From the NCBI RefSeq assembly GCF_002224125.1, contig NZ_NCSM01000029.1, forward strand, positions 73,657-137,656: 64,000 bases of DNA, written 5' to 3'. Source of the DNA: Streptomyces sp. NBS 14/10. Its GTDB lineage: Bacteria > Actinomycetota > Actinomycetes > Streptomycetales > Streptomycetaceae. The notes under the pieces were generated by a model. It had not been told where the DNA came from and ran no database searches. It worked only from the letters and a program-made list of their open reading frames with translations. Both the position numbers and the translations under genes were made by a program. Shown here piece by piece: positions 12,839 through 47,112 of this stretch; the stretch's first letter is position 1, and each line of letters starts with the position of its first letter.

Positions 12839-13975
12839 TCAGACCAGGGGCTCGTAGCGGAGGGCGGGGAAGTAGTCCTCGCAGGTGCCCTCGCGGCGCA
12901 CATCCCAGGTGGCGCAGTGCAGCGAGCCCCCGTACTCGAAAACGTGGCGGAACGGCACCGTGAACACCTCGAAGTCGAGCTTGGCCAGCAGGTCCTGGAG
13001 CGGCTTCTCCCGCTCCTCACAGATCACCTTGGTCGGCGACATGCTGAGCACGTTCATCGAAAGCCACTTGGAGGACTGGCAGTACTTGGGCATCTCGTCA
13101 TTGCCCAGCACGGGTTGCGGGGCGTCGACCAGCTCCCAGTCGTTCGCGAGGAACATCTTCTCCTCGCCTTCGCGCAGCGGCCGCTCGGGGTTGGTGAGGA
13201 CCAGGCCCGGGCGCAGCGGCACAAAGGTGCAGTCGATGTGCGAGGGGAAGAAGTCCAGCGGGAAGTGGACCGTGTGGACCCGGAAGCCGCGCGGCTCCAG
13301 ATGCCGCCTCAGCCAGCGGATGCCCGCCCGGTTGGTGGTCATCGACTCCTGGACCAGGATATCGCGCCCCAGCCGGCTCATATCGGCGGCGTCGAAGACC
13401 ACCTCGTCCTGGCCCACGCAGAACTCGAAGGAATGCATCCGGGCATGCCGCTGCTCCAGCGGCCACTCCCAGAACTCCTCGCGGTACATACCGTCGCGCA
13501 TCGACGGCTTGGGTGCGGTCGTCCACTCGACGCGCGGATCGGCGTTCCAGTACTCGTACACCAGCTTGCGATAGGGCTCGTACTCAAAGTATCGGGCCCG
13601 GCGCGACATGGTGGCCTCGATGATCTCGTTGCCCATCGTGATCATCACATCGCGCGGACAGACCGCGCAGTACTGGTTCTCGACCTCGAAGCCGGGGGTG
13701 CGGACGGGGGCCGAGAAGTCATGCGGTTCCGGGCGGCGCACGGTGATGCCCTGGGACTCCAACAGAGCTGCCAGACCGGCCAGTTCCTCGTTGGCCCGCT
13801 CGATGGCTTCCTGGGATTTCGGTCCGGTGGGGAACGGTGTGTCGGGGGAGTCGCGGATCGCGGGGCGGCTGCCCGGCTCCGTCGGTTCGAAGCAGGCGTT
13901 GTCGGCGGAGCCGACCACGATCTCCTGGAGCGGGTCCCATTCGTTCCATGAATTGACGACCGCCGAATATCGCAT
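12839..13975 (-). CDS. L-arginine:amine amidinotransferase (GATM/StrB1 family)
   Basis: The 378-residue enzyme would transfer the amidino group of Arg to an amine, giving a guanidino product and ornithine. The family catalytic set is visible: Asp in FDAADMSRLGRDI (about 196), His in FFPSHID (about 248) and the nucleophilic Cys in GGSLHCATWDVRR (about 354). ATG at 13975 begins the conserved MRYSAVVNSWNEWDPLQEIVVG fold; longer in-frame starts would run into the NRPS gene. It lies 34 bp downstream of NRPS1 in the same operon, so it is part of the pathway. The acceptor amine (glycine, a diamino acid or a finished peptide amine) cannot be told from sequence. Confidence 0.88.
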   Translation of the reverse strand: MRYSAVVNSWNEWDPLQEIVVGSADNACFEPTEPGSRPAIRDSPDTPFPTGPKSQEAIERANEELAGLAALLESQGITVRRPEPHDFSAPVRTPGFEVENQYCAVCPRDVMITMGNEIIEATMSRRARYFEYEPYRKLVYEYWNADPRVEWTTAPKPSMRDGMYREEFWEWPLEQRHARMHSFEFCVGQDEVVFDAADMSRLGRDILVQESMTTNRAGIRWLRRHLEPRGFRVHTVHFPLDFFPSHIDCTFVPLRPGLVLTNPERPLREGEEKMFLANDWELVDAPQPVLGNDEMPKYCQSSKWLSMNVLSMSPTKVICEEREKPLQDLLAKLDFEVFTVPFRHVFEYGGSLHCATWDVRREGTCEDYFPALRYEPLV

Positions 13976-14009
13976 ATGCGGGTCCACCTGCCTGTTCCGT
14001 AAGACGTGG

Positions 14010-17000
14010 TCAGAGTGCGTCGCCGAGGGACCGCGCGGTGCGGCAGCGGAACACGGTCGCGACATCGACGGTCCGACCCAGCTCCGCTTCGATCCGGCCC
14101 GCCAGGCGCAGCGCGGTCAGCGAGTCGCCGCCGAGGGCGAACACATCGTCGTCCGCCCCGACGGACCCGCGTCCCAGCACCTCGGCGATCAGCTCGCACA
14201 GCCGCCGCACCGCGGGTTCGACGGCCGGTGTGGTGACATCAGTGACATCGGTGAGTAGGTGTCCGGTCGGGACCGTCAGGGCCGCCGGCAGGTCGGTCAG
14301 GAGTTCCCGCAGCCGCGCCACCACCTGCCGGCCGTCCTCGGCGTCGAACAGGTCGGGGCGGTAGCTGACCTCGAGGAGCAGCCGTCGGCCGGGCGCGACC
14401 ATCAGCTTGAGGGGGTAGTGGTACGCGTCGTGCCCGGCCACATCCGTCAGCCGCAGACCGTCCTCCGGGCTGGGCAGGGCCTCGGCGGTCGGGAAGTTCT
14501 CGAAGACGACGCAGGTGTCGAACAGGGTGCCGAGGCCCGCCGCCCGCTGGATGTCCGTCAGGGCGAGGTGGTGGTACGGGAGGAGTTCGGCGTGCTCGTC
14601 CTGTAGCCGCGCCAGCAACTCGGCCACCGGCTCGGCCGCGTCCAGACGCACCCGTACCGGCACGGTGTTGACGAACAGCCCCACCATCTCCTCGACGTTC
14701 GGGAGCTCGGCCACTCTCCCGGAGACCGTGGCCCCGAAGACGATGTCCCGGTGTCCGGTCCGGCGGTGCAGACACAGCGCCCACGCGGCGCGCAGCAGTG
14801 TGTTCAGCGTGACACCGGCTCGGCGCGACGCGTCGAGCAGCGCGGCGGTGTCCGGTTCGGACAGCTCGACGGCGATGCGCTCCGGCAGGACGCGGATCCG
14901 TGCGGTGTCCTGGTCCGGGCAGACCAGGGTGGGGTCTGCCAGGCCCGCCAACGCGCCGCTCCAGGCGGCGTGCGCCTCCTCGCGGTCCTGCGCGGCCAGC
15001 CACCGCAGATAGTCGGGGTAGTGTCCGGGGGTCGGCAGACCGGTGTCCTCGCCATGGTCGAAGAGCGCGAGCAGATCGCGCAGCAGCAGCGACGTGGTCC
15101 AGCCGTCCACCAGCAGATGGTGCATGCTCAGGGCCAGTGTCTGCCGGTCCTCGGCGAGCGTGATCAGGGTGCAGCGGGCCAGCGGAGGCCGGGCCACATC
15201 GAAGCGTTGCCGCCGGTCGGCATCGAGCAGCGCCTCCAGTCGCGCGTCCCGCTCCTGTGCGTCGAGGCCGGTCAGGTCATGGGTGTACCAGTCCATCCGG
15301 ACCTGTTCCGGGATGGCCTGCACCGGTTCCCCCGACCGCCGCTGGAGAAAGGCCGCGCGCAGCATCGGGTGGCGGCGCAGCAGCGCGTCACACGCGCCCC
15401 GGAACCGCTCGGCGTCGAGCCTGCCCCCCACCTCCAGGGTGATCTGCACGTTGTAGACGTCCAGGTCACCGCTGTCGTACCGGGCGTGGAAGAGCAGCCC
15501 CTCCTGCGTCGGGGTGAGCGGCAGCAACTCGGCGACCGGCATGCCGATCCGGGCGCCGAGCCGGGCCAACTCCGCCGCGTCCTGCTCCCCGGCGTCCTCG
15601 ACGGGTTGTGCGCGCACGGGCGCGCGCTTGGGGGCCTCCGCGCTCGTTCCGTACGCCACCAGGGCGCGCAGCGCGGCGAACCAGAGCCGGGCCAGCTCAC
15701 CGACGTCGCCCTCGGTCAGCAGACGAGGGGCCCACAGCCAGTGGGCGGCCAGCCGTGGCCCCGCCGGGCCGTCCTCGACCGCCGCGTTCACCTCGACGAC
15801 ATGCGCCATCGGCATCCGCGGATCGGCTCCGCTCGGCAACGCGTCCGACTCGGGCGCCACGCTCCAGTCCCCGTCGGCGGAACCGTCCTGCCGGCCCAGG
15901 TAGTTGAACCCGAGCTGCGGGGCCGGGTAGGCCGCCAACTCGTCGGCCGTGTCCCGGTTCAGATGGCGCAGCAGGCCGAAGCCGATGCCGCGCCGCGGGA
16001 TCTCCCGGACCTGGTCCGTGACCCGGCGTACGGCCTCGCCGAGGCGCGCGGGCGCCGGATCACCGTCCGGGTCCCAGCCGGCGAACCCGGCGTCGAGCCG
16101 CACCGGATAGAGGGAGGTGAGCCAGCCGACGGTGCCCGACAGGTCGATGTCCTCGCCGATGGGTTCACGGCCGTGTCCCTCCACATCCACCAGCACCCCG
16201 GTGTCGGCGCCGGGGCGCCGCCAGGCGGCGACGGCGAGCGCCAGGCCGGTGAGCAGCACCTCCCTGGTGTCGCTGGACAGGGCGGCCGGCACGGTGGTGA
16301 GCAGCGGCGCGGTCAGGTCCTCCGGGAGGGTGAGGGTGAGTTCCCCGGCCGTGGCGTGGATGTCCCGGGACGGCGAGAGCCGGGCCTCGGCGAGCGCGAC
16401 CCCGCCCGTGCGCAGGATCCGCCGCCACAGGGGGAGTTCGTCCAGCACGGTGTCTGCCTTCGCCGCGGCGTACAGCCGGTGGCTCCACTCCCGCAGCGGC
16501 ACGGGCACCGGGTCCGCCACCGAGGCGGCGTCGGCCGCCGTACGACCCGTACGTTTCTGGCAGGCGGTGTACAGATCGGTCAGCAGGATGTGCCACGAGA
16601 CCGCGTCGACGGCCAGGTGATGGACGGTGACGAGCAGCCGCCCCGGTCGGCTCGCGCCGCCGTCGAACCAGGTGGCCCGCAGCATCACGCCGTCGCGCGG
16701 GGCGAGAGCGTCGGCGTCCTCGCCGGCGCAGTCGGAAATCCGGCGGCGGAGGTCGCCCGAGGCCAGCCCGGAGACATCGACCCGCCGGACCGCCGCGCGC
16801 AGCCCGCGCGGGTCCACCGGGGTCAGCGCGAGGGAGCCGTCGTCGCGCAGGCGGGCGCGGAGCGCCTGGTGGCGCTCCACCACGGCTCGTACGGCGGTGG
16901 CCAGCCGGTCCGTGCCGAGCCCTGGCGCCACGCGCAGCAGCGTCGACTGGTGGAAGGCGTCGATCGCGCCACCGTGTTCCAGCAGCCACCGAGTGATCGG

Positions 17001-20000
17001 CGTGGCGGGGACGGTGGCGGACGCCTCGTCGGGGGCGGGGGAGCCGGCCGCCGGGGCCGGGGTCGGCCGCGCCTCCTGCCGCAGGAACGCTGCCAGGGCG
17101 TCGGCCGTGCGATGGGTGAAGACCTGCTTGGGGGTGAACCGCAGCCCCGCCTCGCGCGCCCGCGCCACCAGTTGGATCACGGTGATGGAATCGCCGCCGA
17201 GGGAGAAGAAGTCATCCGAGGCCCCGACCTTGTCCGCGCCGAGGACCTGCCCGAAGAGCCCGGTGAGCGTGGCCACGGCGTCTTGCTGAGCCTCCGGACC
17301 CGCCTCCGGCTGGGTCCCCACGGTCTCCTGTCGTGGCGGTGTTGTCGGCTCCGCCGGGTCCGGTTCGGGCAGCGCCGCCCGGTCGACCTTGCCGTTGGGG
17401 CTCAGCGGCAGTGCGGGCAGGGTGACGAAGGCCGAGGGGAGCATGTACGCGGGCAGCTTGGCCGCGATCCGTTCGGCAAGCGTGGCCAGTTCGCCGTCGC
17501 GTCCGGGCGCCGCCACGACGTACGCCACCAGGCGCGGCGCACCGGGGCGGTCCTCCCGTACCGCCGCGGCCACCTGGGCGACGGCGGGGTCGCTGCCGAC
17601 CACGGCCTCGATCTCGCCCAGTTCGATCCGGTAGCCACGGACCTTGACCTGGTCGTCGGCCCGGCCGCCGTAGACCACGGTGCCGTCGGGCCGCCACCAG
17701 GCGATGTCTCCGGTCCGGTACATCCGGCCGCCGGGCGCGCCGAAGGGGTCGGCGACGAAGCGGCCCGCGGTGAGCCCCGGCCGCCCGACATAGCCGCGGG
17801 CCAGCACCTCGCCACCGATGTACAGCTCGCCGGGGACACCCGCCGGGACCGGGCGCAGCCACGGGTCCAGGACATAGATCCGGGCGCCGGGGACGGGACG
17901 GCCGATCGGCACCGCACCCCGAGGCAGCGGGTCCCCGGGCTCCAGGCGGTGTTCCACACAGCCCACGGTCGCCTCGGTGGGGCCGTACTCGTTCACGACC
18001 GTCACCTGTGGGTGGCGGGCCCGCCACGCGGCCAGCGCCTCCCCGGTCAGCTGCTCGCCGCCGATGATGAGTTCGCTGCTCGGCGAGTACCACGCGTCGG
18101 AGGCGACCAGCACCGGCAGATGGCTGGGCGTGGCCTTGACGAACGCGGGTCCGTCGCCCTCGGCCCCGGGCGGGGCGTCGAAGTCGTCCAGATCGACCAC
18201 GCGTACCAGGCCGCCCGACGTCAGCGGGCCGAAGATACCGGTGACGGTGAGGTCGAAGGACGGCGGCGAGTGCACGAGCGCCTGGGTGGCCAGGCCCGGG
18301 TAGGCGGCGCGGGCGAAGGCCAGGTAGTTGTCGACCGTGCGGTGTTCCACCGCCACCCCTTTGGGGCGGCCGGTCGACCCCGAGGTGTAGATGACGTACG
18401 CGCGGTCGGCGGGGCGGATCGGCGCACCGCGTTCGGCGTCGTCCACCCCGTGTCCCGGCAGCTCCGCCAGCTCAGCGCGCACGGCGGGGTCGCCGAGCGG
18501 GACCGCCGACGGGTGTGCGGCGAGCGCGGGATGGCCGGTGTCCGCGCAGACGACGGCGGACGGGGCGGCGTCGGCGAGCATGAACGACACGCGCTCCGGC
18601 GGATATCCGGGGTCGACCGGCAGATATCCGGCCCCCGCCTTCAGGGCTCCCAGCAGCGCCACGATCAGATCGACACCGCGCGGCAGCGCCACGGCGACGA
18701 GGTCTCCCGGCCGTACGCCGCGCCGCAGCAGGAGCCGGGCCAGCCGGTTGGCGGCCTCGTCGAGCTGCCGGTAGCTGAGGGTGTTCGCCCCTTCCGCCAC
18801 GGCCGGGGCGTCGGGGGTGCGGCGCACCTGGGCCTCGAAGCGCTGGGGGAGCGTCACCCGATCGCGTCCGTACGCCTCGGGCGACGGTGCCTCCGAGCGG
18901 TGGGCCCACGCGCCCAGCACCTGCTCACGCTCCCGGTCGGTCAGCAGCGGAAGGTGTGCGACGGGGGTGGTGGGGGAGCGGACGAAGGCGTCCAGCAGCA
19001 GCCGCAGCCGGGTGCGGATCAGCTCCAGGCGGGCGTCGTCGAACAGACACCGGCGGTAGCTGATGTGCAGGCTCAGCCGGGGGCCGGGGATGGCCACCAC
19101 GCTCAGCGGGTAGTGGGTGGCGCCGGTGATCTCCTGCTGACCACTGGCCTCAGTGTCCGCCCCGTCCGGCGCGTCGGCGGAGTCTTCGGCGAGCGGGGCG
19201 ATCCGCAGGCCCGGCACGGTGTCCCGTACGGACGCCCAGTCGAAGGGCGCGTCGCCGAAGCCGGTCGAGGTGTCGTACAGCGTGTCAAGACCGGACAGCC
19301 GCCGCACCTCGGTCAGCCCGAGGTGCTGATGCGGAGCCAGCGCGAACTGCTCGTCCTGGACCCGGGCGAACAGGTCGGCCATCGGTTCCGCCGGGTCGAT
19401 CCGCACCCGGACCGGGAGCGCGTTCATCAGCAGGCCCACCACCGAGTCGGCGCCGGGCAGCTGCGGCGGGCGGCCGTGCACGGTCTGGCCGAACACCACG
19501 TCGTCCCGCCCGGTCAGCAGGGACAGCAGCAGCGACCAGACGCCCTGCACCACCGTGTTGAGGGTCAGCCCGTGTTTCCGGGCGGTGGCTGTCAGCGCCT
19601 CGGTGGCGTCCTCGGGAAGTGTGACCAGGGTCAGGCCGGGCATCTCCCCGTCGCCCGCCACGGGCGCGCCGGCGGCGACGAGCGTCGGCTCGGACAGCCC
19701 CTGGAGGGCCGACCGCCACGCCTCCTCGGCAGCCGGGCGGTCCTGCCGGGAGAGCCACCGCAGGAAGTCGGAGAACGGCGTGACCGGCCGAAGCCCCGCC
19801 TCGCCGGCGCCGTCGTCCCCCTCCGCCGCCTCCGTTTTCCGGTGGTAGAAGGTGAACAGATCCTCCAGCACCAGCGGCAGTGACCAGCCGTCGAGCAGGA
19901 TGTGATGGTACGTCAGGACGAACACGTACTGGCTCTCGGCCAGCCGGACGAGCGCGAACCGCATCAGCGGCGGGGCCGTCATGTCGAAGCGGCGCGACCG

Positions 20001-20345
20001 CTCCTCCTCGAGGAAGGCCAGCAGCTTCTTCCGGCGTACGGACTCGGGGTCCGTGGAGAGGTCGAGCTCGGTCCACGGTGTCCGTACGGTCCGCCGGATC
20101 AGCTGCACCGCCTGCCCGTTCCCCCGCTGGCGGAAACCGGCGCGCAGCACGGCGTGGCGGGCGAGGGTGGCGGCGCAGGCCGCGCGCAGCGCCTTCGCCG
20201 AGACGTCTCCGAGCAGTTCGAGGGGGGCCTGGATGGTGTAGACGTCCGCAGCCTCGGAGTCGTACAGAGCGTGGAAGAGCATGCCCTCCTGGAGCGGAGT
20301 GAGGGGCAGCACGGACTCGATCGGCGACTTGGACACTTCGTTCAC
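14010..20345 (-). CDS. NRPS1: C-A(Asn)-T-E-C-T, terminal module lacks an A domain
   Basis: The product is 2111 residues. Domains by motif: C (HHILLDGWS, about 148); A ([11 protein letters not shown] about 650, [18 protein letters not shown]); T (LGGDS about 1052); E ([10 protein letters not shown] about 1241, EGHGRE, FNYLGR); C (MHHLLVDGW about 1745); T (LGGDS about 2072). Pocket residues read by eye are DLTKIGEVGK, the known Asn signature, so module 1 should incorporate D-Asn after epimerisation. Module 2 goes straight from C to T with no adenylation core and no thioesterase. The last T domain must therefore be loaded in trans, and release needs another enzyme. It is the third gene of a TE-TauD-NRPS1-amidinotransferase operon. 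The C-terminus stops right after T without a docking tail, which fits a terminal module. Confidence 0.93.
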
Positions 20346-20462
20346 GCGACGATGGTGTCGCGCGGCCGATCCGCGGGCCAGGCAGCCGACCGGCAGCTTC
20401 CCTGCCCGCCGACGGCCCTGCCCACGTACGGCATTGCCGGTGTGCAGCTCAGCGGCAGCAAC

Positions 20463-21422
20463 TCACCCGCGCAGGGCGGGCTGTGCCAGGTCGGCCCTGC
20501 TGATCAGGTCGGACATGGACACCAGCACCCGGCGCTCCCCGGTGAACGCCTCCCGGCCGTGCGACCAGCGCATGTTGTCGATCACCAGCAGGTCGTGGCG
20601 GTGCCAGTCGAAGCGCTGCGCACGGCGCTCGAAGGCCGTACGGACCGCGGCGACCGTCTCGTCGGGGATCGGGGTCCCGTCGCCGAACAACACGTCGTTG
20701 GGCAGCCCGCCCTCGCCGAACAGCGCCACCAGGTCCCCCCGCAGCCCCTGCGGCAGCGAGGACTGGTGGAACAGCACCAGGTGGTTGAACCACGCCCGGC
20801 GCCCGGTGCGGGGGTGCGCCACGGTCGCGGGCGCCCTGCGCACCGTACGCAGCCGGTCGTCCTCCAGCCACTCCCACTCCAGGCCGCCCGCCGCGCAGAA
20901 CCGGGCCACCTCGGCGCGGCTGTCGGTCTGGAACGCCTCGCGCCAGTCGAGGCCGACCCCGCTGCCGTAGTTGCGCACATAGCGCAGCCCTCGCGCCTCC
21001 ACGGCCCGCACCACCTCGTCCGGGATGTCCTCCAGCACCCGCGCCACATCCGTGATCGGGGTGGCACCGCCGGTGGCCGCCGGGGTGGCGCAGAAGAAGG
21101 CCAGCCGGCCTGGCCAGGCACCGGCGTACGACGACTCGCAGTGCTGCGGGATCACCTCGCGCGCCGGGTACTCGGTGGAGGTGAAGACACCGCCGCCCAC
21201 CTCGCTGCGCGGCGTGGAGCGCTCGGTGTACTCCAGTGGCTTGAACCCGAGCCCGTCCAGGGCCTGTTGGAAATCCTCGACGCCCTCGGCGCCGGCCCCG
21301 CGGATCAGCGCGGCCCCGGTCCCGGCGACGGCCTCGTCGATCGCCGTGACCTGCCGGTGCACAAAGGACCCCAGCCGCTCGCCGTCCGCCTCCAACACGG
21401 TGATGCCGGTCAGCTCGTCCAC
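20463..21422 (-). CDS. TauD/SyrP-like Fe(II)/2-oxoglutarate dioxygenase
   Basis: The product is 319 residues. The iron ligands are the HxE of IPQHCESSY and the distal His of NMRWSHGREAF; the 2-oxoglutarate-binding Arg is in GERRVLVSM. The GTG start follows AGGGAG. SyrP, the family member from syringomycin assembly, beta-hydroxylates Asp held on an NRPS carrier domain. Placed directly before NRPS1, this enzyme probably hydroxylates a residue on that protein, perhaps the Asn or the trans-loaded one. The closest functional match is inferred from family resemblance, not alignment. Confidence 0.82.
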   Translation of the reverse strand: MDELTGITVLEADGERLGSFVHRQVTAIDEAVAGTGAALIRGAGAEGVEDFQQALDGLGFKPLEYTERSTPRSEVGGGVFTSTEYPAREVIPQHCESSYAGAWPGRLAFFCATPAATGGATPITDVARVLEDIPDEVVRAVEARGLRYVRNYGSGVGLDWREAFQTDSRAEVARFCAAGGLEWEWLEDDRLRTVRRAPATVAHPRTGRRAWFNHLVLFHQSSLPQGLRGDLVALFGEGGLPNDVLFGDGTPIPDETVAAVRTAFERRAQRFDWHRHDLLVIDNMRWSHGREAFTGERRVLVSMSDLISRADLAQPALRG

Positions 21423-21487: not shown

Positions 21488-22273
21488 TCAGCCGAGCACC
21501 GCCGTGACGGCGTCGAGTACGGTCGGAGCACCGGTGAAGAGGTAGTCGTGCCCGCCGGGCAGCAGCTGGAGGGTGAAACCGGCCGAGGCACACGACCGCC
21601 ACCGTTCCAGCTCGGCCCTGCCCACCAGCGGGTCCTGGGCGCCGCCGAACACGTGCAGCGGGCAGCCCACCGGCACCGGCCCGGGGCTGCGGTACGCCTC
21701 GGTGAGCGCGAGGTCGCCCCGTACCGTGCGCAGCGCGTACCGCAGATACGCCGGATACTCCCGGAGGTCGGGCGGGAAACCGCCGAACCCCTCCAGCCAG
21801 GCGAGCAGTTTCTCGTCGTCCCGGTCCGAGATCCGCTTCGGCACCGGGGTGTGCGGCGCCCGGGACGCGGAGACCAGCAGCGCGCGGGGCGCGGGCAGGC
21901 CACGCCGGACGGCGCGGACGGCGATCTCGTAGCCCAGGAGCGCGCCGAAGCTGTGGCCGAAGAGCGCGTACGGCAGGTCGAACTCGCCCGCGATGCCGTC
22001 GAGCACCGCGTCGGCCAGCTCCTCCAGGGTGTCCGGTACGGGCTCCCCGGCGCGCACACCACGGCCGGGGAGCTCCACCGTCGCCAGTTCGATGTCGTCG
22101 GGCGGGGTGAGCCGCCAGGGGGCGAACGACCCGGCGCTGCCGCCCGCCTGGGGCAGACAGAACAGCCGCAGCCGGGGGCTGGGCGCGGTCACCCGGCCGA
22201 CGATCCACGGAGTGTCCACGCCACGCGGTGTGCCGGCGGAGTGGGAGGGTGGTACGGCGGCATGGGTTCGCAT
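21488..22273 (-). CDS. Type II (GrsT-like) thioesterase
   Basis: A 261-residue alpha/beta hydrolase with a Ser-Asp-His triad: GHSFGAL, GAQDPLV and GGHDYLF. ATG at 22273 is chosen because AAAGGAG lies 5 bases upstream; an earlier frame extension lacks a site. Such enzymes clear misloaded carrier proteins and can occasionally release products. No NRPS in the cluster has an integral TE, so this enzyme may also have a release role here. It leads the minus-strand operon and is preceded by a cluster operator at 22409-22428. Confidence 0.88.
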   Translation of the reverse strand: MRTHAAVPPSHSAGTPRGVDTPWIVGRVTAPSPRLRLFCLPQAGGSAGSFAPWRLTPPDDIELATVELPGRGVRAGEPVPDTLEELADAVLDGIAGEFDLPYALFGHSFGALLGYEIAVRAVRRGLPAPRALLVSASRAPHTPVPKRISDRDDEKLLAWLEGFGGFPPDLREYPAYLRYALRTVRGDLALTEAYRSPGPVPVGCPLHVFGGAQDPLVGRAELERWRSCASAGFTLQLLPGGHDYLFTGAPTVLDAVTAVLG

Positions 22274-25416: not shown

Positions 25417-25435
25417 CCAGGCAACCGGCCGGTAA
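25417..25435 (-). promoter_or_regulatory. Cluster operator copy facing the acyl-AMP ligase gene
   Basis: On the minus strand it reads TTACCGGCCGGTTGCCTGG: two half-sites at an 11-bp pitch, 103 bp before the FAAL start. Confidence 0.62.
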
Positions 25436-25475: not shown

Positions 25476-25494
25476 TTGCCGGTCGATTGCCTGG
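25476..25494 (+). promoter_or_regulatory. Cluster operator copy facing the NRPS2-NRPS3 operon
   Basis: TTGCCGGTCGATTGCCTGG, with TTGCC at 25476 and 25487 (11-bp pitch), 118 bp before the NRPS2 start. This is the clearest copy, and with the minus-strand copy it forms a divergent control region. Confidence 0.68.
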
Positions 25495-39146: not shown

Positions 39147-39196
39147 CGGGCGAGGTGTCCGACCGCCCCCACGGCATGACCGGCGAGGTGTCCGGC
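39131..39196. repeat. 33-bp tandem duplication at the P450-ACP/acyl-CoA dehydrogenase junction
   Basis: Two 33-bp units (39131-39163 and 39164-39196) differ at two positions. Each contains the sequence GGCATGAC with a possible start, so the duplication adds 11 codons (MTGEVSDRPHG) before the second ATG at 39176 and keeps the ATGA overlap with the upstream stop. Confidence 0.85.
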
Positions 39197-40924
39197 CGCC
39201 CCTCGTACGCGCTGGCCGCGGACTTCGAGCGGGTGCTCGGCGACCCGGCGGCGAGCGGCGGTCCGTTCAGCCACCCGGAGACGGTCGAGCACGAGGAGCT
39301 GGGCGCGCTGCCCCCCGGGGCGGTGGACCTGGTCCGCTCCTGGGGGTTCAGCCGGTATCTGGTGCCCGAGCACTTCGGCGGCGGGCTGCGCAACCTGGAG
39401 CAGCTGGTCCTGCTGACCCGTGCGCTCTCGCGCCGCAATCTGACCGTCGCGGTGATGTTCGGCTCGGCGCTGCTCGGCGTCAACCCGGTGTGGCTGTGGG
39501 GCGACGAGGAGCAGCGGGCCCTGGTGGCGCGGGGCGTCCTCGACGGGGATCTGGCGTGTTTCGCGGTGTCCGAACCGGACCACGGCAGCGATCTGGGGAC
39601 CAACGAGACGACGGCGTCGACGGACGGTGACGGATATGTCCTCACCGGGGAGAAGTGGCCGGTGGGCAACGCCACCCGGGGCCGGTTCCTCAGCGTCTAC
39701 GCGGCCGTCGAGGGCGTCGGCCCGTCCCTGCTGCTGGTCGACAAGCGGCAGCTCGCGCCCGGGAGTTGGGACAACCACCCCTTCGTCCGGACGGTGGGCC
39801 TGCGCGGCCACGATCTGAGCGGGATCACCTTCCGGGACACCGAGGTGCCTGCCGGCGCGCTGCTCGGCCGCCCCGGCGCGGGCCTGGCCCAGATTCTTCA
39901 GGTGCTGCAGATCACCCGCACCGCCATCGGCGCGCTGTCGCTCGGCACCATGGACTCGGTGCTGCGGATCGCGCTGCGCCACGCACGCGAGCGGGTGCTG
40001 TACGGGCAGGAGATCTACCGCATCCCCGTCATCCGGCGGCACTTGGTGCACGCGCATCTCGACCTGCTGATCGCCGAGTGCACCACGCTGCCGGTGGCAC
40101 GCGCGCTGTCGGTCGCCCCGTCCCGGCTCAGCCTGTGGTCCTCCGTGGTCAAGTACCTCGTACCGACGCTGGGCGAGGAGGTCGTGCAGGAGTCCGCCCG
40201 GGTCCTGGGGGCCCGTGGCTATCTGCGCGAGGGCGTGGCCTCCGGTGTCTTCCAGAAGCTCCAGCGCGACCACGCGATCGCGAGCGTCTTCGAGGGCACC
40301 ACCCATGTCAACCTCCATGGCATCGCCTCGCAGCTGCCCACCGTGGCCCAGGTGGCCGACCGCCCCGCGCCCGGCCAGGACGGGGTGCTGCGGCAGCTCT
40401 TCGACTGGTCCGAGGAGGCCCCGGTGTGGCACCCCTCGGGCCGGGCGCTGCGGCTGACCAACGCCACCGAGGACGAGATCACCCGGGGGTGGGGCCCGGC
40501 GGTGGCCGAGGCCCGCCTGATCGCGGAGCGCGAGCTGCCGGTATCCGAGGCCGATGCGCTGCTGAAGGTCCTCGACGCGCTGTCGGCCCGCCGGGCGGCC
40601 TTCTACACGCGGATCGCCGCCGAGTCGCTGGACGCGGCGACGACCGAGGGGCAGGACCGGGCCGCGGAGCACTGCGTCCACCACGCGGCCGCCTCATGCC
40701 TGTACACCTGGCTGTACTCCTTCGCGGGGGAGCGGGCCTCGGCCGGGGGTACGGGATGGCTGGTCCTCGTACTGCAACGGCTGCTCGCCCGGCTCGACCC
40801 CACGGCCGGTCTTGAGGAGAGCCTGCTGCCCTGGCTGGAGGAGCTGATGTTCGGCTGCCTCGACGGCCCGGAGTACTTCTCGCTCCGGGCCGTCAAGGCA
40901 GCCGCCGGAACGGCGGAGGGCTGA
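39143..40924 (+). CDS. Acyl-CoA (acyl-ACP) dehydrogenase, long form
   Basis: The product is 593 residues (582 if the ATG at 39176 is used). Its N-terminal 380 residues are the usual FAD-dependent fold, with SEPDHGSDLG on the flavin loop, and the catalytic Glu in FEGTTHVNL. About 200 further residues form a mainly helical extension, longer than standard beta-oxidation enzymes. It follows the P450-ACP gene with translational coupling, so the substrate is probably a carrier-bound acyl or aminoacyl group, to be made alpha,beta-unsaturated. Related enzymes in natural product clusters can also couple dehydrogenation to decarboxylation. Confidence 0.87.
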   Translation: MTGEVSDRPHGMTGEVSGRPSYALAADFERVLGDPAASGGPFSHPETVEHEELGALPPGAVDLVRSWGFSRYLVPEHFGGGLRNLEQLVLLTRALSRRNLTVAVMFGSALLGVNPVWLWGDEEQRALVARGVLDGDLACFAVSEPDHGSDLGTNETTASTDGDGYVLTGEKWPVGNATRGRFLSVYAAVEGVGPSLLLVDKRQLAPGSWDNHPFVRTVGLRGHDLSGITFRDTEVPAGALLGRPGAGLAQILQVLQITRTAIGALSLGTMDSVLRIALRHARERVLYGQEIYRIPVIRRHLVHAHLDLLIAECTTLPVARALSVAPSRLSLWSSVVKYLVPTLGEEVVQESARVLGARGYLREGVASGVFQKLQRDHAIASVFEGTTHVNLHGIASQLPTVAQVADRPAPGQDGVLRQLFDWSEEAPVWHPSGRALRLTNATEDEITRGWGPAVAEARLIAERELPVSEADALLKVLDALSARRAAFYTRIAAESLDAATTEGQDRAAEHCVHHAAASCLYTWLYSFAGERASAGGTGWLVLVLQRLLARLDPTAGLEESLLPWLEELMFGCLDGPEYFSLRAVKAAAGTAEG

Positions 40925-40946
40925 GCGGGGGCCGGCCGCCGCTCAG
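40921..40946. terminator. Hairpin overlapping two convergent stop codons
   Basis: CTGAGCGG and CCGCTCAG form an 8-bp stem around a 10-base GC-rich centre. The left arm contains the dehydrogenase TGA and the right arm the regulator stop. It probably ends both transcripts; no T-run is present. Confidence 0.45.
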
Positions 40947-42292
40947 GCGGCGGTGTTCTGGGAGTGGCGTGCCAGCTGTGTCACGACATGCCGCACCAGG
41001 GCATGGACGCGATAGGTGTACTGCCGCTCCCGGTGGGTCTGGACCAGCGAGGCGTCCGCGAGCTCGGCCAGTAGATGGGCCACCCGCACCATCTCGGGGC
41101 GGCGGCTCGGTTGGGCGGTCAGTACGTCGTCGAGCGAGAAGCCGTCGGGCAGGGCGACCAGGTCGTGCAGCAGTTCACGGTGTGGCGCGGGGAGCAGATC
41201 GTAGCTCCATCGCACGCTGTCGGACAGTGTGCGATGCGCGCTCAGGCCCCCCGTATCGGCCTGGCCGAGCAGATGGAAGAGCGTGTCTTCCTGGAGGAGA
41301 GAGGTCAGCGGGAGCGATCGGAGCCGCTGTGCGGCGATCTCGATGGCCAGCGGCACCCCGTCCAGGAGTTGGCACAACGTGGTGACCAGCGGGAGGTGAT
41401 GGGCGAGATCCAAGGTCGGCAGGGCGGCCTGCACCCGGCGCAGCAGGAGCTCAACGGCGCTCGGCACCGGCATGTCACGGCCCTTGGGGCCGTCCACGCG
41501 CAGCGGTTCGACCTCCCAGGTCTCGGCTGCGCTGGCGGCCAGGGCGCGGCGCGAGGTCACCAGCAGATGGAGCCCGGGATGCTCGTCGAGCAACTGCCGC
41601 GCGGCGCGGGCCGTCTGCTGCGCGACATGTTCGGCGCCGTCGAGCACCAGCAGCCGTCGGCCGCCGCGCGCGCCCGCGAGAGAATGTCCGGTTACGCCGG
41701 TGAACTCCCGTGTGACGCGCGTCAACTCGGCACGTGCGTGTGCCGGGTCGAGATGTTCGGGCGGGCAGTCGCGCAACTCGACGACGGCGACTCCACCGCG
41801 GAACAGCGGGCGCAGCCGGGACGCCGCCGCGAGGGCCAGCCGTGTCTTGCCCACCCCGCCAGGACCGGTGAGTACGACCAGTCGGCTGCGCTGGGCGGAG
41901 GCCAGGACGTGGCGCATATCGAGCTGTCTGCCCACTAACGGATCGCCGAGCGGCCGTGGGCCGTGCCACGGCGAGGGCTCCGACGAGCGGCCGCGGTGCG
42001 CCTCCGGGCGCTGTTCGGGCAGCGCCGCCATGTCGTCCGCGCCCCACGGCGCCGTCTCAGGTGGCGCCGCGGGCGCCGCGCCCAAGGCGCTGAGCAGCAG
42101 GGCCACCGAGGTTCTGCGCGGGTTGGTGTTGGAGCCCGTCTCCAGATTACGGATCGTCCGCACGCTCACCCCGGAGCGCTCGGAGAGCTCTTCTTGGGTC
42201 CAGCCGGAGATTCGGCGTTGGCTGAGCAGAAAGTCGCGCAACTGATGAATGTCGGTCCCGTCGAACGACATGAATTCATTTGGAATCACCAT
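40943..42292 (-). CDS. XRE-type HTH/NB-ARC ATPase transcriptional regulator
   Basis: The product is 449 residues. An N-terminal XRE helix-turn-helix (about 12-60: WTQEELSERSGVSVRTIRNLE) is followed by a linker and an STAND/NB-ARC ATPase with P-loop LTGPGGVGKTRLA and Walker B RLLVLDGAEHV. It ends after the winged-helix part without TPR repeats, shorter than AfsR or LuxR-type STAND regulators. ATG at 42292 is chosen because AGGGGG precedes it; ATG at 42271 has no site. It is the only obvious regulator inside the cluster, divergent from the MFS operon, and so the prime candidate for controlling it. Confidence 0.82.
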   Translation of the reverse strand: MVIPNEFMSFDGTDIHQLRDFLLSQRRISGWTQEELSERSGVSVRTIRNLETGSNTNPRRTSVALLLSALGAAPAAPPETAPWGADDMAALPEQRPEAHRGRSSEPSPWHGPRPLGDPLVGRQLDMRHVLASAQRSRLVVLTGPGGVGKTRLALAAASRLRPLFRGGVAVVELRDCPPEHLDPAHARAELTRVTREFTGVTGHSLAGARGGRRLLVLDGAEHVAQQTARAARQLLDEHPGLHLLVTSRRALAASAAETWEVEPLRVDGPKGRDMPVPSAVELLLRRVQAALPTLDLAHHLPLVTTLCQLLDGVPLAIEIAAQRLRSLPLTSLLQEDTLFHLLGQADTGGLSAHRTLSDSVRWSYDLLPAPHRELLHDLVALPDGFSLDDVLTAQPSRRPEMVRVAHLLAELADASLVQTHRERQYTYRVHALVRHVVTQLARHSQNTAA

Positions 42293-42717
42293 GGAGTGAA
42301 TCCCCCTTGCTTCCCCGCTTGTGCATGCTCCAGAACCCGAAAAGTCATGTGCACGCAATGACAATGTCCCCGTAGAACAGCAAGAAGACCGAGGTGTGAC
42401 GGTGTGGCAAGAACCGGACCCTACTCGACAACTCGGCCGAGTGGGAGTGGTAGTCTTGACATGAAAGCGCCAAGTGTCCACTAGTTGACAACTCCGCCAA
42501 TGCGGCCCGAAGTGGACATCCCGACATTACGCGCTCTTGAAACATTCTTTCTTCGTCACCCGACCACTCCCCTCGGTGAGCGGCAAATCTCCCCGTGAAT
42601 TGCCGGTGCACTGCCTGGCCCGGGTCAACGCGCATCGACCAGCATGCTGCGCGGGATCCACGCGGGGCCCGGAGCCCCAACGGGCGAGACGGCGAAGGAA
42701 CAGGGGGGGCGCAGTCG
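42293..42717. promoter_or_regulatory. Divergent control region between regulator and MFS operon
   Basis: These 425 bp contain no gene and are less GC-rich than their surroundings. GACAACTC occurs at 42427-42434 and 42487-42494, 60 bp apart. TTGACA boxes lie at 42456-42461 and 42485-42490, the second inside the near-palindrome AGTTGACAACT. The cluster operator is at 42600-42618. I infer promoters in both directions and possible autoregulation. Confidence 0.5.
42600..42618 (+). promoter_or_regulatory. Cluster operator copy facing the MFS/KAS III/ACP/ligase operon
   Basis: TTGCCGGTGCACTGCCTGG, half-sites at an 11-bp pitch, 99 bp before the MFS start. It differs from the NRPS2 copy only in the spacer and one half-site base. 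Confidence 0.65.
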
Positions 42718-44118
42718 ATGGCGCGGTCACGTCCCGAGGAGTTCGAGGAGTCCGAGGAGTCCGAGGAGTCCGAGGAGACACAGGGCGCTCAAGGGAAGCG
42801 ACCGTCGCTCTGGCGCAACCGCGACTACCTGTACTGGTGGTCCGGAAACGGTCTGTCCACCCTGGGCACCAGCGTCTCCACGCTCGCCTTCCCGCTGCTC
42901 ATGCTCTACGCCACCGGGTCCGCGACCCAGGCCGGCACCATCACCGTGCTGCATATGCTCGGCAAACTCGGCACCCTCGCGGTGGGCGGAGCGCTCGCGG
43001 ACCGCGTGTCACGCCGCGCCATCCTGTGCCTGGTCCCCCTGGTCGAGGCGGTGGCGATGGCCGCCGTCGCCCTGCTGGTGTACCGGGGCGACCCGCCGGT
43101 CCTGGGGCTCGACGCACTGGCGCTGGTCAGCGGATTGGCCGCCGGGCTGAAGGTCGGCGTCTCGACACCGGTGCTGCGCCGGATCGTCCCCAAGGAGCAG
43201 ATCGCCACCGCGACGGCGCAGGGCATGGGCCGCGACATGGTCGTACAGCTCGTCGGCGCCCCCCTCGGCGGGCTGCTGTATTCCATGGCCCGCTGGATCC
43301 CGTTCCTCTTCGACGCGGTCTCCTTCGTCTTCATCACCCTGAGCTCGCTGTTCATCCGCCGCCCCCTCGGCCCGGACCGGCACACCGACGGTGAGCGGCA
43401 CACCGGCCTGGCCGAGGACATGAAGGACGGTCTCCGGCTGATCAGACGCAGCGACTATCTCGTGTTCACCCTCGCGTGGGGAGCCCTGCTCAACACCGTG
43501 GCGCAAGGGCTCACCCTGCTGTTCGTCGTGCTGGTGCGGCACCGCGGTGGCGGGCCGACCGAGGTCGGCGTCGCGACCTCGCTCGCGGTCGTCGGCGGTG
43601 TCATCGGGGCCGTCGCCGGACCGTCGCTGATGCGCAGCCTCGGCGCGCGGCGGGTGCTGCTGTTCTCCGCCTGGGTGTTCGTGGCCTCCTTCGCCGTGGT
43701 GGCGCTGGTGCCCGAGCCGTGGCAGATCGGCCTGGTCCTGATGGCCGGCATGATCAGCATGGTGCCGATGAACGTCGTCATCGAGTCGTACGAGGTCCGG
43801 CTGGTCCCGGACGCGTATCTGGGCAGAACCGCCGCGACCAGCCAGTTCTTCTTCCAGGCACTGCAGTGGATCGGTCCGCTGGCGGCCGGTGTCCTCGCCG
43901 ACGCCCTGGGGGTGGAGACGGCCGTGCTGATCCTGGCCGTGGCCATGGCCCTGCTGGCGCTCACCCTGCACACCGCCCGGCGCCAACTGAGCGTCCTGGA
44001 CATCCCGCTGGCCGAGGTGCCCGAGCTTCCGGCCCCGCCCCCGGCGGCGGGCCGTCCGTCCGAAACCGAACCCGAACCCGTTCCCCCGCACGCCGGGGGC
44101 TCGACCCTGAAGCGGTGA
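42718..44118 (+). CDS. MFS efflux transporter
   Basis: The product is 466 residues with about 12 hydrophobic segments and the MFS loop 2-3 motif GGALADRVSRR. The N-terminus has an acidic repeat (EES units; 9-bp repeats at 42736-42780) before the first span. ATG follows AAGGAACAGGGGGGG. It heads the operon that includes the KAS III-like gene, the carrier and the ligase, and most likely exports the cluster product, giving self-resistance. Confidence 0.87.
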   Translation: MARSRPEEFEESEESEESEETQGAQGKRPSLWRNRDYLYWWSGNGLSTLGTSVSTLAFPLLMLYATGSATQAGTITVLHMLGKLGTLAVGGALADRVSRRAILCLVPLVEAVAMAAVALLVYRGDPPVLGLDALALVSGLAAGLKVGVSTPVLRRIVPKEQIATATAQGMGRDMVVQLVGAPLGGLLYSMARWIPFLFDAVSFVFITLSSLFIRRPLGPDRHTDGERHTGLAEDMKDGLRLIRRSDYLVFTLAWGALLNTVAQGLTLLFVVLVRHRGGGPTEVGVATSLAVVGGVIGAVAGPSLMRSLGARRVLLFSAWVFVASFAVVALVPEPWQIGLVLMAGMISMVPMNVVIESYEVRLVPDAYLGRTAATSQFFFQALQWIGPLAAGVLADALGVETAVLILAVAMALLALTLHTARRQLSVLDIPLAEVPELPAPPPAAGRPSETEPEPVPPHAGGSTLKR

Positions 44119-44148: not shown

Positions 44149-45177
44149 GTGGCCACTTCAGTGGAGATGGGCATCGTCGCGACGGGCACGTCCTTCGGTG
44201 AACAGCGCGGTGTGGCCGAGACGGCCGGTGCGTATGTGCCCGACCCCGAGGCCGTCGGCGGCCTGGGGTACTGGACCTACCACCGGGTGGCCGACGGTGT
44301 CACCGCCACCGACCTCGCCGCCGAGGCGGCTCGCGAGGCGCTGGCGAACGCGGACCTCGACATCGTCGACATCGACCTGATCGTCGTCGGCCACTCCGAC
44401 GTTCCCGAGTATCTGGGCTGGGACTCCTCGGCGGCCGTGGCCCGGGCGTTGGGCGCGTACGGCACCCCCACGGTGCTGTGCACGCAGGTGTGCGCCGCCT
44501 GGTCGGTGGCGCTGGACCACGCGGCCGGTGCGATGGCGCTCTCGGCCGACACCGAGACCGTACTGGTGGTCCTGGTCAACGCGGCCAGTGAGGCGCACAC
44601 CAACAGGATGGACTTCAACGGGGCCATCGCCAGCGACGGCGCCGTCGCCGCCGTGCTGCGGCGCGGACACCCACGCCTGCGCCGGCTCTCCTCCGCCCAC
44701 TTCACCAACCCCGAGTACGCGGACTTCTTCCGCGTCGAGTTCGGCGGTTCCGCCGCTCCCGTACCGCCCGCGGGCCGCGCCGATCTGCACGCGGACCCGA
44801 TGGTCGGCATCTTCCGCCACTTCGACCGCGACCCCGGGCGCTTCCAGGCGTTCATGAAGGAGATCAGCGGGCGGATCGCGGACGTCGTCGACCAGGCCCT
44901 CTCGCGCGCCGGCAAGGACCGGACCCAACTGGCCCGGCTCATCTACCTCAACGACAACCAGCAGGCGATCCGCGAGGCCGCCGACGCCGTCGGCCTCCCC
45001 ATCGAGCGCACCAACGCCGAACTCGCCCGCGAACTGGGCCATATGGGCGCCGCCGACCAGCTGATCTGTCTGCGGCGCCATATCGAGGACGGCGAGCTGG
45101 CGCCGGGGGATCTCGTGGCACTGGTGGGCGTCGCAGCGCCGGGCATGCACTGGTTCTGCACGCTCATCGAGGCGTGA
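44149..45177 (+). CDS. KAS III-like (FabH/CerJ-type) acyltransferase with rearranged active site
   Basis: The product is 342 residues in the thiolase fold. GTG at 44149 follows GAAGGGA. The nucleophile Cys is kept (CTQVCAAWSVAL). The FabH His (PHQAN) aligns with Asn in YLNDNQQAI, and the FabH Asn (GNTSAAS) aligns with His in GHMGAADQ, so the two appear swapped. Homologues such as CerJ and ChlB3 transfer acyl groups instead of making C-C bonds. It is followed at 46 bp by a free carrier protein and then an adenylating enzyme, so it may shuttle an acyl or aminoacyl group from that carrier, perhaps to the A-less module of NRPS1. Confidence 0.82.
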   Translation: MATSVEMGIVATGTSFGEQRGVAETAGAYVPDPEAVGGLGYWTYHRVADGVTATDLAAEAAREALANADLDIVDIDLIVVGHSDVPEYLGWDSSAAVARALGAYGTPTVLCTQVCAAWSVALDHAAGAMALSADTETVLVVLVNAASEAHTNRMDFNGAIASDGAVAAVLRRGHPRLRRLSSAHFTNPEYADFFRVEFGGSAAPVPPAGRADLHADPMVGIFRHFDRDPGRFQAFMKEISGRIADVVDQALSRAGKDRTQLARLIYLNDNQQAIREAADAVGLPIERTNAELARELGHMGAADQLICLRRHIEDGELAPGDLVALVGVAAPGMHWFCTLIEA

Positions 45178-45223: not shown

Positions 45224-45538
45224 ATGCCCGCACAGCCCCACACCGCACCGCCGGCCACTCCCGCCGTCTCCGAGGAGGACATCGCGGCCTTCGTCGTCGA
45301 GCGGTTTCTGCCCGGCGTCGACGTGGCCGAGCTCGATGCGGAGTACGACCTGCTGGCCACCGCCGTGATCGACAGCCTCGGTGTGCTGCGGATCGCCGAA
45401 TGGCTGGCGGACCGCCATCGCATCGTCGTCCCCGACACGGAGCTGACCAGCAGGAACTTCCGCTCGGTGAGCGCCATCCGGACCACGGCCGAGCGCGCGG
45501 CGGCCGGAGCGGGACCGGCCGGAGAGGGACACGTATGA
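45224..45538 (+). CDS. Free-standing acyl/peptidyl carrier protein
   Basis: The product is 104 residues with the 4'-phosphopantetheine Ser in ATAVIDSLGVLRI. ATG at 45224 follows GGAGGG by 7 bases. Its stop overlaps the ATG of the next gene (ATGA), tying it to the adenylating enzyme that probably loads it. Confidence 0.87.
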   Translation: MPAQPHTAPPATPAVSEEDIAAFVVERFLPGVDVAELDAEYDLLATAVIDSLGVLRIAEWLADRHRIVVPDTELTSRNFRSVSAIRTTAERAAAGAGPAGEGHV

Positions 45539-47112
45539 CGGACACGTTCGTCACGAGGTTCGCCCAGCACGCGGCCACCCGGCCCGCCGCGCCCGCGCTC
45601 ATCTGGGAGGACCGCGCGATCGGCTACGCCGAGCTGTGCGCCATGGCCTGCCGGGCCCGCGCCCAGGTGGAGACCGCGGCCCCGGACGCCTCCCGCCCGG
45701 TGGGCCTGCGGATGCGTAAATCTCCCGAGGCGGTGGCCCTGGTGCTGGGCGCCCTGATGGCCGGGCGCCGCATTCTGCTGCCGTCCCATGAACTGCCCGA
45801 CACTCCCGCGAAGGAGCTGTACGAGCAGGCGGGATGCGGCGTCGTACTCGGCCTGGCCGCCGGTCCGCTGATCGACCAGGTGGTGGACCCGCACATGGAC
45901 CCGCACATGGACCCGCACATGGACCCGTACATGGACCCGCACATGGACCCGTACATGGTGTCCGGGAGCGCCGGAGGGCCGCCGCCGACACCGGTCGCTG
46001 ACGACGCCATCGGCTTTATGCTCACCACCTCCGGCTCGACCGGCCTCCCGAAGATCGTCCCGCTGTCGTTCGGGGCCGTCACCCGGTTCACCGCGTGGGG
46101 TGCCGAGACCTTCGGGATCACGCCGGGCACGGCCGTACTCAACTACGCGCCGCTCAACTTCGATCTGTGTCTGCTGGATGTGTGGACCACCCTCGCGTAC
46201 GGCGGCACGGTCGTCCTGGTCGACCCCGACCGGGGCGCCTCGGCCGGCTATCTGCGCGATCTGGTGGTCGACCACCGCGTCTCGCTCATCCAGGGCGTAC
46301 CGCTGCTGTTCCAGCTGCTCGTGGAGGCGGCGGCCGGCGAAGAGCCGCCGGCCGGGCCCGAACACCTCGTCTTCGCCGGTGACAGCATGCCCGCACGGGT
46401 GCTGGCCGGGCTCTTCACGGTCTTCCCCAAGGCCCGCTGGTACAACAACTACGGCTGCACCGAGACGAACAACAGCTTTCTCCACGAGGTGGACCGCGCC
46501 CACCCGGTCCGCACCCCGCTGCCGATCGGCCGCCCCCTGCCGGGTGTCAGCTGGCTGATTGTCGGCGGGAACGGGCGCGCGCTGACCGGCCCAGGACAGG
46601 GCGAGCTGCTGGTCAACACGCCCTTCCAGAGCACCGGTTACGCGAATGTGCCGAGCGAGGAGAAGTTCGGCCCGCACCCGGACGGCGTCCCCGGCCTCGT
46701 CTATTACCACAGCGGCGATATCGCCACCCGGCACGAGGACGGCTCCCTCAGCATCCTCGGGCGCACCGATTTCATGGTGAAGGTCCGGGGCTTCCAGGTG
46801 AGCACCCAGCAGGTCGAGGGCATCCTGCTGGACCACCCGGCGGTCGTCGAGGCCGCCGTCGTCGCGATCCCCGACCCGGTGGCCGGACACCGGCTGCACG
46901 CCCGGCTGCGCCTCGCCGAACCGGGCTCGGTGGGGGTGCTGGCCCTGCGGCAGTACTGCGCGGAGCGCACGGTGCGGGCGGCCATCCCCGGGGTGATCGA
47001 GACGGTGGCGGATCCGCTGCCCAGGACCTCCACCGGCAAGATCGACCGGAACCGGATCAGGGAGTCCCTGGCCGGGGCGAGCGTCACCCACGCGCCGCGC
47101 GGAAGCTCTTGA
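45535..47112 (+). CDS. Free-standing adenylation enzyme (AMP-ligase)
   Basis: The product is 525 residues. Core motifs are TTSGSTGLPKIV, YGCTETN, YHSGDIA, and the C-terminal Lys in RTSTGKIDRNR. The NFDLCLLD strand resembles that of stand-alone amino acid-activating enzymes of the DltA/PltF kind and keeps the Asp that binds an alpha-amino group. It most likely charges the preceding carrier with an amino acid (substrate unknown). Residues 118-141 hold six copies of a four-residue unit (DP[H/Y]M), an insertion in the N-terminal subdomain with no known role. Its 3' end overlaps the convergent membrane-protein gene by 29 bp. Confidence 0.85.
   Translation: MTDTFVTRFAQHAATRPAAPALIWEDRAIGYAELCAMACRARAQVETAAPDASRPVGLRMRKSPEAVALVLGALMAGRRILLPSHELPDTPAKELYEQAGCGVVLGLAAGPLIDQVVDPHMDPHMDPHMDPYMDPHMDPYMVSGSAGGPPPTPVADDAIGFMLTTSGSTGLPKIVPLSFGAVTRFTAWGAETFGITPGTAVLNYAPLNFDLCLLDVWTTLAYGGTVVLVDPDRGASAGYLRDLVVDHRVSLIQGVPLLFQLLVEAAAGEEPPAGPEHLVFAGDSMPARVLAGLFTVFPKARWYNNYGCTETNNSFLHEVDRAHPVRTPLPIGRPLPGVSWLIVGGNGRALTGPGQGELLVNTPFQSTGYANVPSEEKFGPHPDGVPGLVYYHSGDIATRHEDGSLSILGRTDFMVKVRGFQVSTQQVEGILLDHPAVVEAAVVAIPDPVAGHRLHARLRLAEPGSVGVLALRQYCAERTVRAAIPGVIETVADPLPRTSTGKIDRNRIRESLAGASVTHAPRGSS
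45886..45957 (+). repeat. Six in-frame copies of a 12-bp unit
   Basis: GACCCG(C/T)ACATG repeats six times without interruption, encoding DPHM or DPYM inside the adenylation enzyme. Copies 4 and 6 share the same C-to-T change, so expansion probably involved a two-unit step. A slippage product. Confidence 0.92.

Follow-up and report, generated by a model that had tools for sequence, protein, structure and literature searches.

The window analysed here is a stretch of 64,000 nucleotides from Streptomyces sp. NBS 14/10 (contig NZ_NCSM01000029.1, positions 73,657 to 137,656; genome of 12.1 Mb). At 12839-48372 it holds what we predict, from gene and domain content, to be a conserved Streptomyces cluster for a fatty-acid-capped, guanidine-bearing peptide. 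An earlier note, made from the letters alone, had described an unrecognised acyl-peptide cluster at 12839-47112. Gene calling with Pfam and NCBIfam scans of the window proteins, together with homology to human AGAT, recovered every enzyme class named there: three nonribosomal peptide synthetase (NRPS) genes, a fatty acyl-AMP ligase (FAAL)-like enzyme, a ferritin-like di-iron protein, a 593-aa acyl-CoA dehydrogenase, a P450 joined to an acyl carrier protein (ACP), a short-chain dehydrogenase (SDR), two TauD/VioC-type oxygenases, a cassette of ketoacyl-ACP synthase (KAS) III-like protein, ACP and AMP-ligase, and an amidinotransferase. The biosynthetic reading frames are open in the gene calls, with strong coding signal. 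The genes are listed below, with C, A, T, E and TE for condensation, adenylation, thiolation, epimerization and thioesterase domains.

12839..13975, - strand: AmidinoT, AGAT/SxtG-family L-arginine amidinotransferase (homology to human AGAT)
14010..20345, - strand: NRPS1, C-A(Asn code)-T-E-C-T, last module lacking an A domain, no TE domain (family scans)
20463..21422, - strand: TauD1, TauD/TfdA-type 2-oxoglutarate oxygenase (family scan)
21488..22219, - strand: type II thioesterase, TEII (family scan)
22589..23551, + strand: dFeO, di-iron ferritin-like protein, AurF Pfam, R2/R2lox-like fold (family scans, structure searches)
23656..25314, - strand: FAAL-like fatty acyl-AMP ligase (family scans)
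25612..28845, + strand: NRPS2, C-A(Leu-like)-T, first module (family scan, code alignment)
28827..35360, + strand: NRPS3, C-A(DASDAGLVDK)-T-C-A(Leu-like)-T (family scan, code alignment)
35534..36637, + strand: putative arginine oxygenase of the VioC/GntD/NapI family (NF041363)
36690..37460, + strand: short-chain dehydrogenase, SDR (family scans)
37515..39146, + strand: P450-ACP fusion, P450 to about residue 405, linker 406-429, ACP from Met430
39143..40924, + strand: ACAD, 593-aa acyl-CoA dehydrogenase, FEGT Glu384 kept (family scan, alignment)
40943..42292, - strand: regulator, helix-turn-helix with STAND-type ATPase (gene call, family scan)
42718..44118, + strand: MFS exporter (family scan)
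44161..45177, + strand: KAS3, KAS III-like protein, triad Cys111-His294-Asp299 (alignment)
45224..45538, + strand: free-standing ACP (no Pfam hit; NCBIfam ACP models below cut-off)
45535..47112, + strand: LIG, stand-alone adenylation enzyme (family scans, alignment)
47084..48007, - strand: HAAS-domain protein, counted as part of the cluster
48034..48372, - strand: PadR regulator, counted as part of the cluster

In the comparisons that follow, G- and L-labels denote genomes and fetched stretches, respectively, and homologue searches covered 392 genomes. Gene names in relatives (phosphopantetheinyl transferase or PPTase, LuxR-type, carrier, loader) were assigned by eye unless a scan is cited.

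Read in the order NRPS2, NRPS3, NRPS1, the A domains carry the codes DAWLVGAVIK (Leu-like), DASDAGLVDK (basic-residue-like), DAWLVGAVMK (Leu-like) and DLTKIGEVGK (Asn), under a code numbering and residue assignments that we take from general knowledge. The codes are identical or nearly so across five genomes, and the second, with its two internal Asp, fits a basic residue. The E domain of NRPS1 scores 106.4 bits against TIGR01720 (cut-off 74.2). The last module of NRPS1 is C-T without an A domain, in line with the trans-loaded NRPS of the earlier note, and the same ending is found in every relative copy whose end was covered. From domain strings and codes we obtain the acyl-Leu-X-Leu-D-Asn-Y backbone that the note had proposed, and predict it more narrowly as acyl-Leu-(oxidised Arg)-Leu-D-Asn-Y. 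A passage on Asn/Asp-type domains in PMC12283262 gives DLTKIGEVGK as compatible with a Cya-3 moiety; DASDAG and DAWLVGAV are absent from that paper.

Besides the code, the VioC-like enzyme bears on residue X, since it fits a role in arginine oxidation. It passes the cut-off of GntD (NF041363, enduracididine hydroxylase; 368.8 bits vs 345), and 6daw, the structure of NapI (PMC10884159), ranks first among solved structures. L-Arg is desaturated by NapI but hydroxylated by VioC and OrfP (PMC10884159), so "oxidised Arg" is the limit of our claim: these three are the best solved relatives of the window enzyme, which may desaturate or hydroxylate. The hydroxyl groups that had been expected on the product are putative: the solved structure closest to the VioC-like enzyme is that of a desaturase. 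The other 2-oxoglutarate oxygenase, TauD1, is present in G361 and G076 and absent from G218, G057 and G160.

Enzymes suited to oxidation of a carrier-bound acyl chain, another element of the earlier proposal, are present as well. The acyl-AMP ligase misses the cut-off of FAAL subfamily NF006624 (258.4 bits vs 600), hence "FAAL-like". The di-iron protein dFeO lies below the curated cut-off of the R2-like ligand-binding oxidase (NF006200), and its VIA-align and Foldseek lists intermix R2, R2lox and NrdB without separating the families. ACAD orthologues occur at 76-85% identity in 5 other genomes, followed by matches at 66%, 63%, 54% and 54%; remote relatives lie near FAAL genes in G090, G073 and L080. 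In S. diastatochromogenes (L068:3472-9134) ACP, ACAD, regulator and operator (described below) are kept beside other genes, including a KAS II-like one (by eye).

At the other functional end of the cluster is the apparent loading cassette. AmidinoT lacks a Pfam hit and matches human AGAT at 1.8e-84 over residues 6-369, with further similarity to SxtG and HsvA; HC, HID and FDAAD active-site motifs align as in AGAT/SxtG-type enzymes, where they hold the active-site Cys, His and Asp. Canonical FabH has a Cys-His-Asn triad with an HQAN motif. In KAS3, Cys-His-Asp is kept in 20 of 20 aligned sequences (only matches longer than 290 aa were taken), and HQAN is replaced by NDN or NDS in the window protein and ten orthologues; a remote relative, L119, has His there. 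KAS3 therefore has the triad of ChlB3/CerJ-type acyltransferases, not that of canonical FabH: ChlB3 has Cys113, His296 and Asp301 and CerJ has the matching pair (PMC9573744), and the triads align with that of KAS3. ChlB3 acts between ACPs in chlorothricin biosynthesis and CerJ on a sugar hydroxyl, neither of them on an NRPS (PMC9573744).

The code of LIG prints as DLLQVANNSK, in which position 330 is uncertain owing to an alignment gap. LIG keeps the Asp by which ordinary A domains bind the amino group of their substrate. The Arg331 of VinN/BolO-type enzymes, which reads the alpha-carboxylate of aspartate (PMC7756342, PMC12186527), has Asn/Ser at nearby positions of LIG, in an alignment without VinN itself. 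LIG (at least 68% identity) and KAS3 (at least 70%) share one set of 6 genomes out of 392. The six also have AmidinoT at 83% or more, as does G240, and ten further genomes have it at 71-80%. Among 120 listed relatives of LIG, 31 protein clusters have 61-94% identity and the next has 51%.

Of ten fetched stretches, eight place a remote KAS3 relative next to what look, by eye, like a small carrier protein and a loader. Forty distant LIG matches rank below the six orthologues; ten, all Streptomyces stretches, were fetched (L126-L135; 38-49%), and each has LIG and its ACP with ectoine-synthase-like and dehydrogenase genes, family names being taken from one scanned stretch. The scanned stretch also has a transglutaminase-like gene. 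In G240 (L106:12809-19002) an 88% AmidinoT relative belongs to a different cluster, where a carbamoyltransferase and a pair of 2-oxoglutarate oxygenases accompany it, and in L123 a 41% KAS3 relative has a VioC-like oxygenase, transketolase-like genes and an NRPS fragment nearby. The L123 stretch resembles what we take to be a naphthyridinomycin-type cluster.

The cluster is punctuated by an operator, TTGCCGGTnnnnTGCCTGG, a direct TGCC repeat with its halves 11 bp apart. It was detected by a gapped pattern; an ungapped 16-mer search of intergenic regions with one mismatch allowed missed it. Ten matches occur in the window at up to 3 mismatches, compared with a mean of 2.82 in shuffled sequence, and ten were reached in none of 100 shuffles. 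Of these, five are intergenic within the cluster, one is in the P450-ACP linker, three fall in thioesterase and LIG coding sequence, and one is outside the cluster. The copies at promoters are:

20378..20396, - strand: operator copy with 1 mismatch, upstream of NRPS1
25417..25435, - strand: operator copy with 2 mismatches, FAAL side of the divergent promoter
25476..25494, + strand: perfect operator copy, NRPS2 side of the divergent promoter
42600..42618, + strand: perfect operator copy, upstream of MFS

Across six whole genomes all 10 perfect copies fall in the cluster, as do 15 of the 23 copies with at most 1 mismatch; the reversed pattern, used as control, gave 14 matches. The operator recurs at many corresponding places in the clusters of relatives but not at all of them: in G057 the NRPS2 side lacks a copy at up to 3 mismatches. 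All seven clusters scanned for the operator encode a protein related to the regulator (46-82% identical), and the regulator at 40943-42292 is likely to bind it. By these counts the operator is real and conserved and supports the single regulon that the earlier note had postulated.

Almost every named relative of this locus comes from Streptomyces. The conserved order is AmidinoT, NRPS1, TEII, dFeO, FAAL, NRPS2, NRPS3, VioC-like, SDR, P450, ACP, ACAD, regulator, MFS, KAS3, ACP, LIG, HAAS, PadR. It is kept, with a few extra genes, in G218 and G160, where NRPS1 is split in two genes, and in G057 except for HAAS-PadR; in G361 and G076 the cluster is split over contigs. The part from NRPS3 to LIG, or more, is found in S. 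sparsogenes, S. griseomycini, S. griseoflavus, S. globisporus, S. anulatus and S. milbemycinicus. AmidinoT forms the left edge in G218, G057 and G160. HAAS and PadR accompany the cluster in several relatives, and in G057 the pair has moved inside it, between dFeO and FAAL; we therefore count both as cluster genes and place the right edge, previously put at 47112, at 48372. An EF-G-like gene (10339-12471) borders the cluster in the window. A resistance role for it was weighed and rejected, since in G218, G057 and G160 no gene called on the left flank of AmidinoT matched it. The window genome has two MbtH genes, both on other contigs.

The P450-ACP protein, which the earlier note counted among the distinguishing features, is a recent, lineage-specific fusion. 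Of 12 named loci that have both a P450 and an ACP, 11 encode them as separate genes; the exception is S. milbemycinicus (NRRL 5739, the nearest named strain found), with a fused protein 97% identical to that of the window. L070 is included in this count although its parts are not adjacent, and L077-L080 and L068 were left out, their stretches having no P450. Only one protein cluster (P0001) among 120 listed P450 relatives covers the whole fusion; it has 20 member sequences, its representative is 92% identical and it has the same linker start. P450 and ACP are separated by a thioesterase gene in G361, G076, G160, S. griseomycini, DH5, SM1 and S. griseoflavus; G218 has a 50-aa remnant of it (58% identical), and the window has no second TEII at this position. 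In S. sparsogenes the gap is 175 nt as called and 118 nt to the conserved MTHTP start. Between two anchors the window and S. milbemycinicus are 85 bp shorter than S. sparsogenes (41 vs 126 nt), and with these 85 bp the P450 stop is gone. A small deletion, not an insertion, is the likely origin of the fusion, because other relatives have the two genes separate. The linker falls on the following segment:

38735..38801, + strand: apparent former ACP promoter region, now coding linker, with an operator match at 38738-38756

The old ATG of the ACP, at 38802 (Met430), is retained in frame. Through this ATG and the retained internal operator, the one locus may still give both the P450-carrier fusion and a free ACP.

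Searches of open papers found no characterised pathway with this gene order or domain string. The cluster is thus without a characterised counterpart there, as the earlier note had supposed, but it is a conserved Streptomyces family and not a one-off, and it appears to be an uncharacterised variant of known lipopeptide logic. AFC-BC11 (afc, Burkholderia; PMC12186527) likewise combines a FAAL, a stand-alone A-type enzyme, a single carrier and a KAS III-like protein with Cys/His/Asp; unlike the window it has no condensation domains, its product is a dehydro-beta-alanine trimer, and no amidinotransferase is reported in the parts covered. That KAS III-like protein, AfcL, was shown in vitro to bear beta-alanyl peptides as thioesters (PMC12186527). 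The bolagladins (bol; PMC7756342) are NRPS lipopeptides whose cluster also has an adenylating enzyme, ACP, KAS III homologues and an acyl-CoA dehydrogenase; their own are one tetramodular NRPS (Ser-Val/Ile-Hse-Ser), a pyridoxal phosphate (PLP) decarboxylase and a citrate-primed acyl chain. Enamidonin, autucedine and olenamidonin are Streptomyces acyl-peptides, as predicted here, in which an uncommon unit joins the acyl chain to the peptide (PMC11204786, PMC12843350); the enamidonin-type backbone is Phe-Dpr-Dpr-Gly (Dpr, diaminopropionate) with dehydro-beta-alanine (same sources), vs codes that predict Leu, a basic residue, Leu and Asn in the window. Enamidonin, bolagladin and AFC-BC11 were each tried as the identity of the cluster and rejected, since their backbones do not match. 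Related clusters of the G236 type share FAAL, ACP, ACAD, dFeO, P450, SDR, VioC-like enzyme, a C-A-T-E-C-T end and the same operator. They differ in an extra Gln-like module, a Ser-like code instead of Asn, and PanD (aspartate decarboxylase) and a KAS II-like gene in place of AmidinoT and KAS3.

The reading we favour, held tentatively at somewhat short of even, is a conserved one-operator lipopeptide cluster making an acyl-Leu-(oxidised Arg)-Leu-D-Asn chain whose guanidine-bearing last residue is loaded in trans by LIG, ACP and KAS3. The observations beneath it are the gene and domain content, the codes common to relatives, the operator, the KAS3 triad and the fused gene. FAAL would charge the ACP partner of the P450, and ACAD, P450, di-iron protein and SDR would oxidise the carrier-bound acyl chain. 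The VioC-like enzyme would oxidise free arginine for the first module of NRPS3, and the chain would be built by NRPS2, then NRPS3, then NRPS1. LIG would adenylate an amino or guanidino acid and load it on the small ACP, KAS3 would pass the unit via Cys111 to the last T domain of NRPS1, and the amidinotransferase would supply the guanidino group. Loading in trans is proposed because the last module lacks an A domain while the cluster has one stand-alone A-type enzyme, an ACP and KAS3, and because LIG, KAS3 and AmidinoT co-occur; KAS3 is proposed as the loader on account of its ChlB3/CerJ-like triad, of AfcL carrying peptide thioesters and of the carrier-like and loader-like neighbours of remote KAS3 relatives. 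Which residue is guanidinylated, and the final acceptor of KAS3, we infer. A bolder reading, unlikely as a whole, joins two ideas: a KAS III-fold aminoacyl shuttle that charges the A-less module with a guanidinylated amino acid, and a fusion that turned a live promoter and operator into coding linker, so that fused protein and free ACP may both still be made.

Several findings weigh against trans-loading. G236 and G116 keep the A-less E-C-T end with no KAS3 (1e-40) and no AmidinoT (1e-50) match genome-wide; no LIG match reaches 1e-95 in G236, and the sole LIG relative of G116, at 51%, is on another contig. Something else therefore loads that module there. The pocket of LIG differs from those of its relatives, and the 88% AmidinoT of G240 sits in another cluster. 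An MbtH gene is absent from the window cluster, and at least four relatives have one beside AmidinoT. PanD lies in the clusters of G076, G236, G116 and L077 (L078 is the G116 locus fetched under a second label). PanD was not found in the window cluster or in the covered stretches of G218, G057, G160 and G361, nor has the window genome, rated 100% complete, a PanD match. It hints at a beta-alanine unit in some members, which trans-loading leaves unplaced, and therefore keeps two alternatives alive. In one, which we consider possible but doubtful, AmidinoT would make a small guanidino acid (such as guanidinoacetate or 3-guanidinopropanoate), LIG and ACP would activate it, and KAS3 would acylate with it a hydroxyl or amine of the growing or finished peptide, the A-less module being loaded by something else. 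The A-less end occurring both with and without LIG, KAS3 and AmidinoT suits this decoration, as does PanD directly adjoining AmidinoT in G076; that LIG keeps its Asp, presumed to bind an amino group, and that no other loader for the A-less module is seen in the window cluster argue against it.

In the other, modelled on bolagladin and enamidonin, the peptide would begin with an N-acyl (dehydro)-beta-amino acid made by LIG, ACP, KAS3 and ACAD. PanD in the four relatives fits such a starter, as does the route to dehydro-beta-alanine proposed for bolagladin from an adenylating enzyme, ACP, KAS III homologues and an acyl-CoA dehydrogenase, a proposal for which only deletions of the dehydrogenase and the decarboxylase were tested (PMC7756342). 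We hold it to be improbable: no PLP decarboxylase, a bolagladin feature, is among the scanned genes of 12839-48372, clusters without KAS3 still have ACAD, and remote ACAD relatives are found near FAAL. The cluster might instead be decaying in this strain, with MbtH, PPTase and second thioesterase lost, coding repeats expanded and the P450-ACP fusion a by-product. Besides the missing MbtH and the missing thioesterase between P450 and ACP, no PPTase is found among the scanned cluster genes where relatives have one (by eye), and in-frame tandem repeats occur in LIG (12 bp, 6.2 copies, at 45884-45958, giving MDPH/MDPY repeats, the S. milbemycinicus orthologue being 20 residues shorter) and at the starts of ACAD (33 bp; 39127-39202) and MFS (9 bp; 42734-42777). 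Open biosynthetic frames with strong coding signal, and a fusion found also in S. milbemycinicus and in the representative of the 20-member P0001, make decay very improbable.

What is new here is the breadth of the cluster, the conserved operator, the co-occurring loading cassette and a fusion in which a former promoter region is translated. The fused P450-ACP offers a traceable case of gene fusion, from separate genes with a thioesterase between them, through a decayed thioesterase and a short gap, to a single protein whose linker appears to be the former promoter region. For Streptomyces, the locus defines an uncharacterised conserved lipopeptide family with a testable predicted backbone and a compact putative loading cassette.

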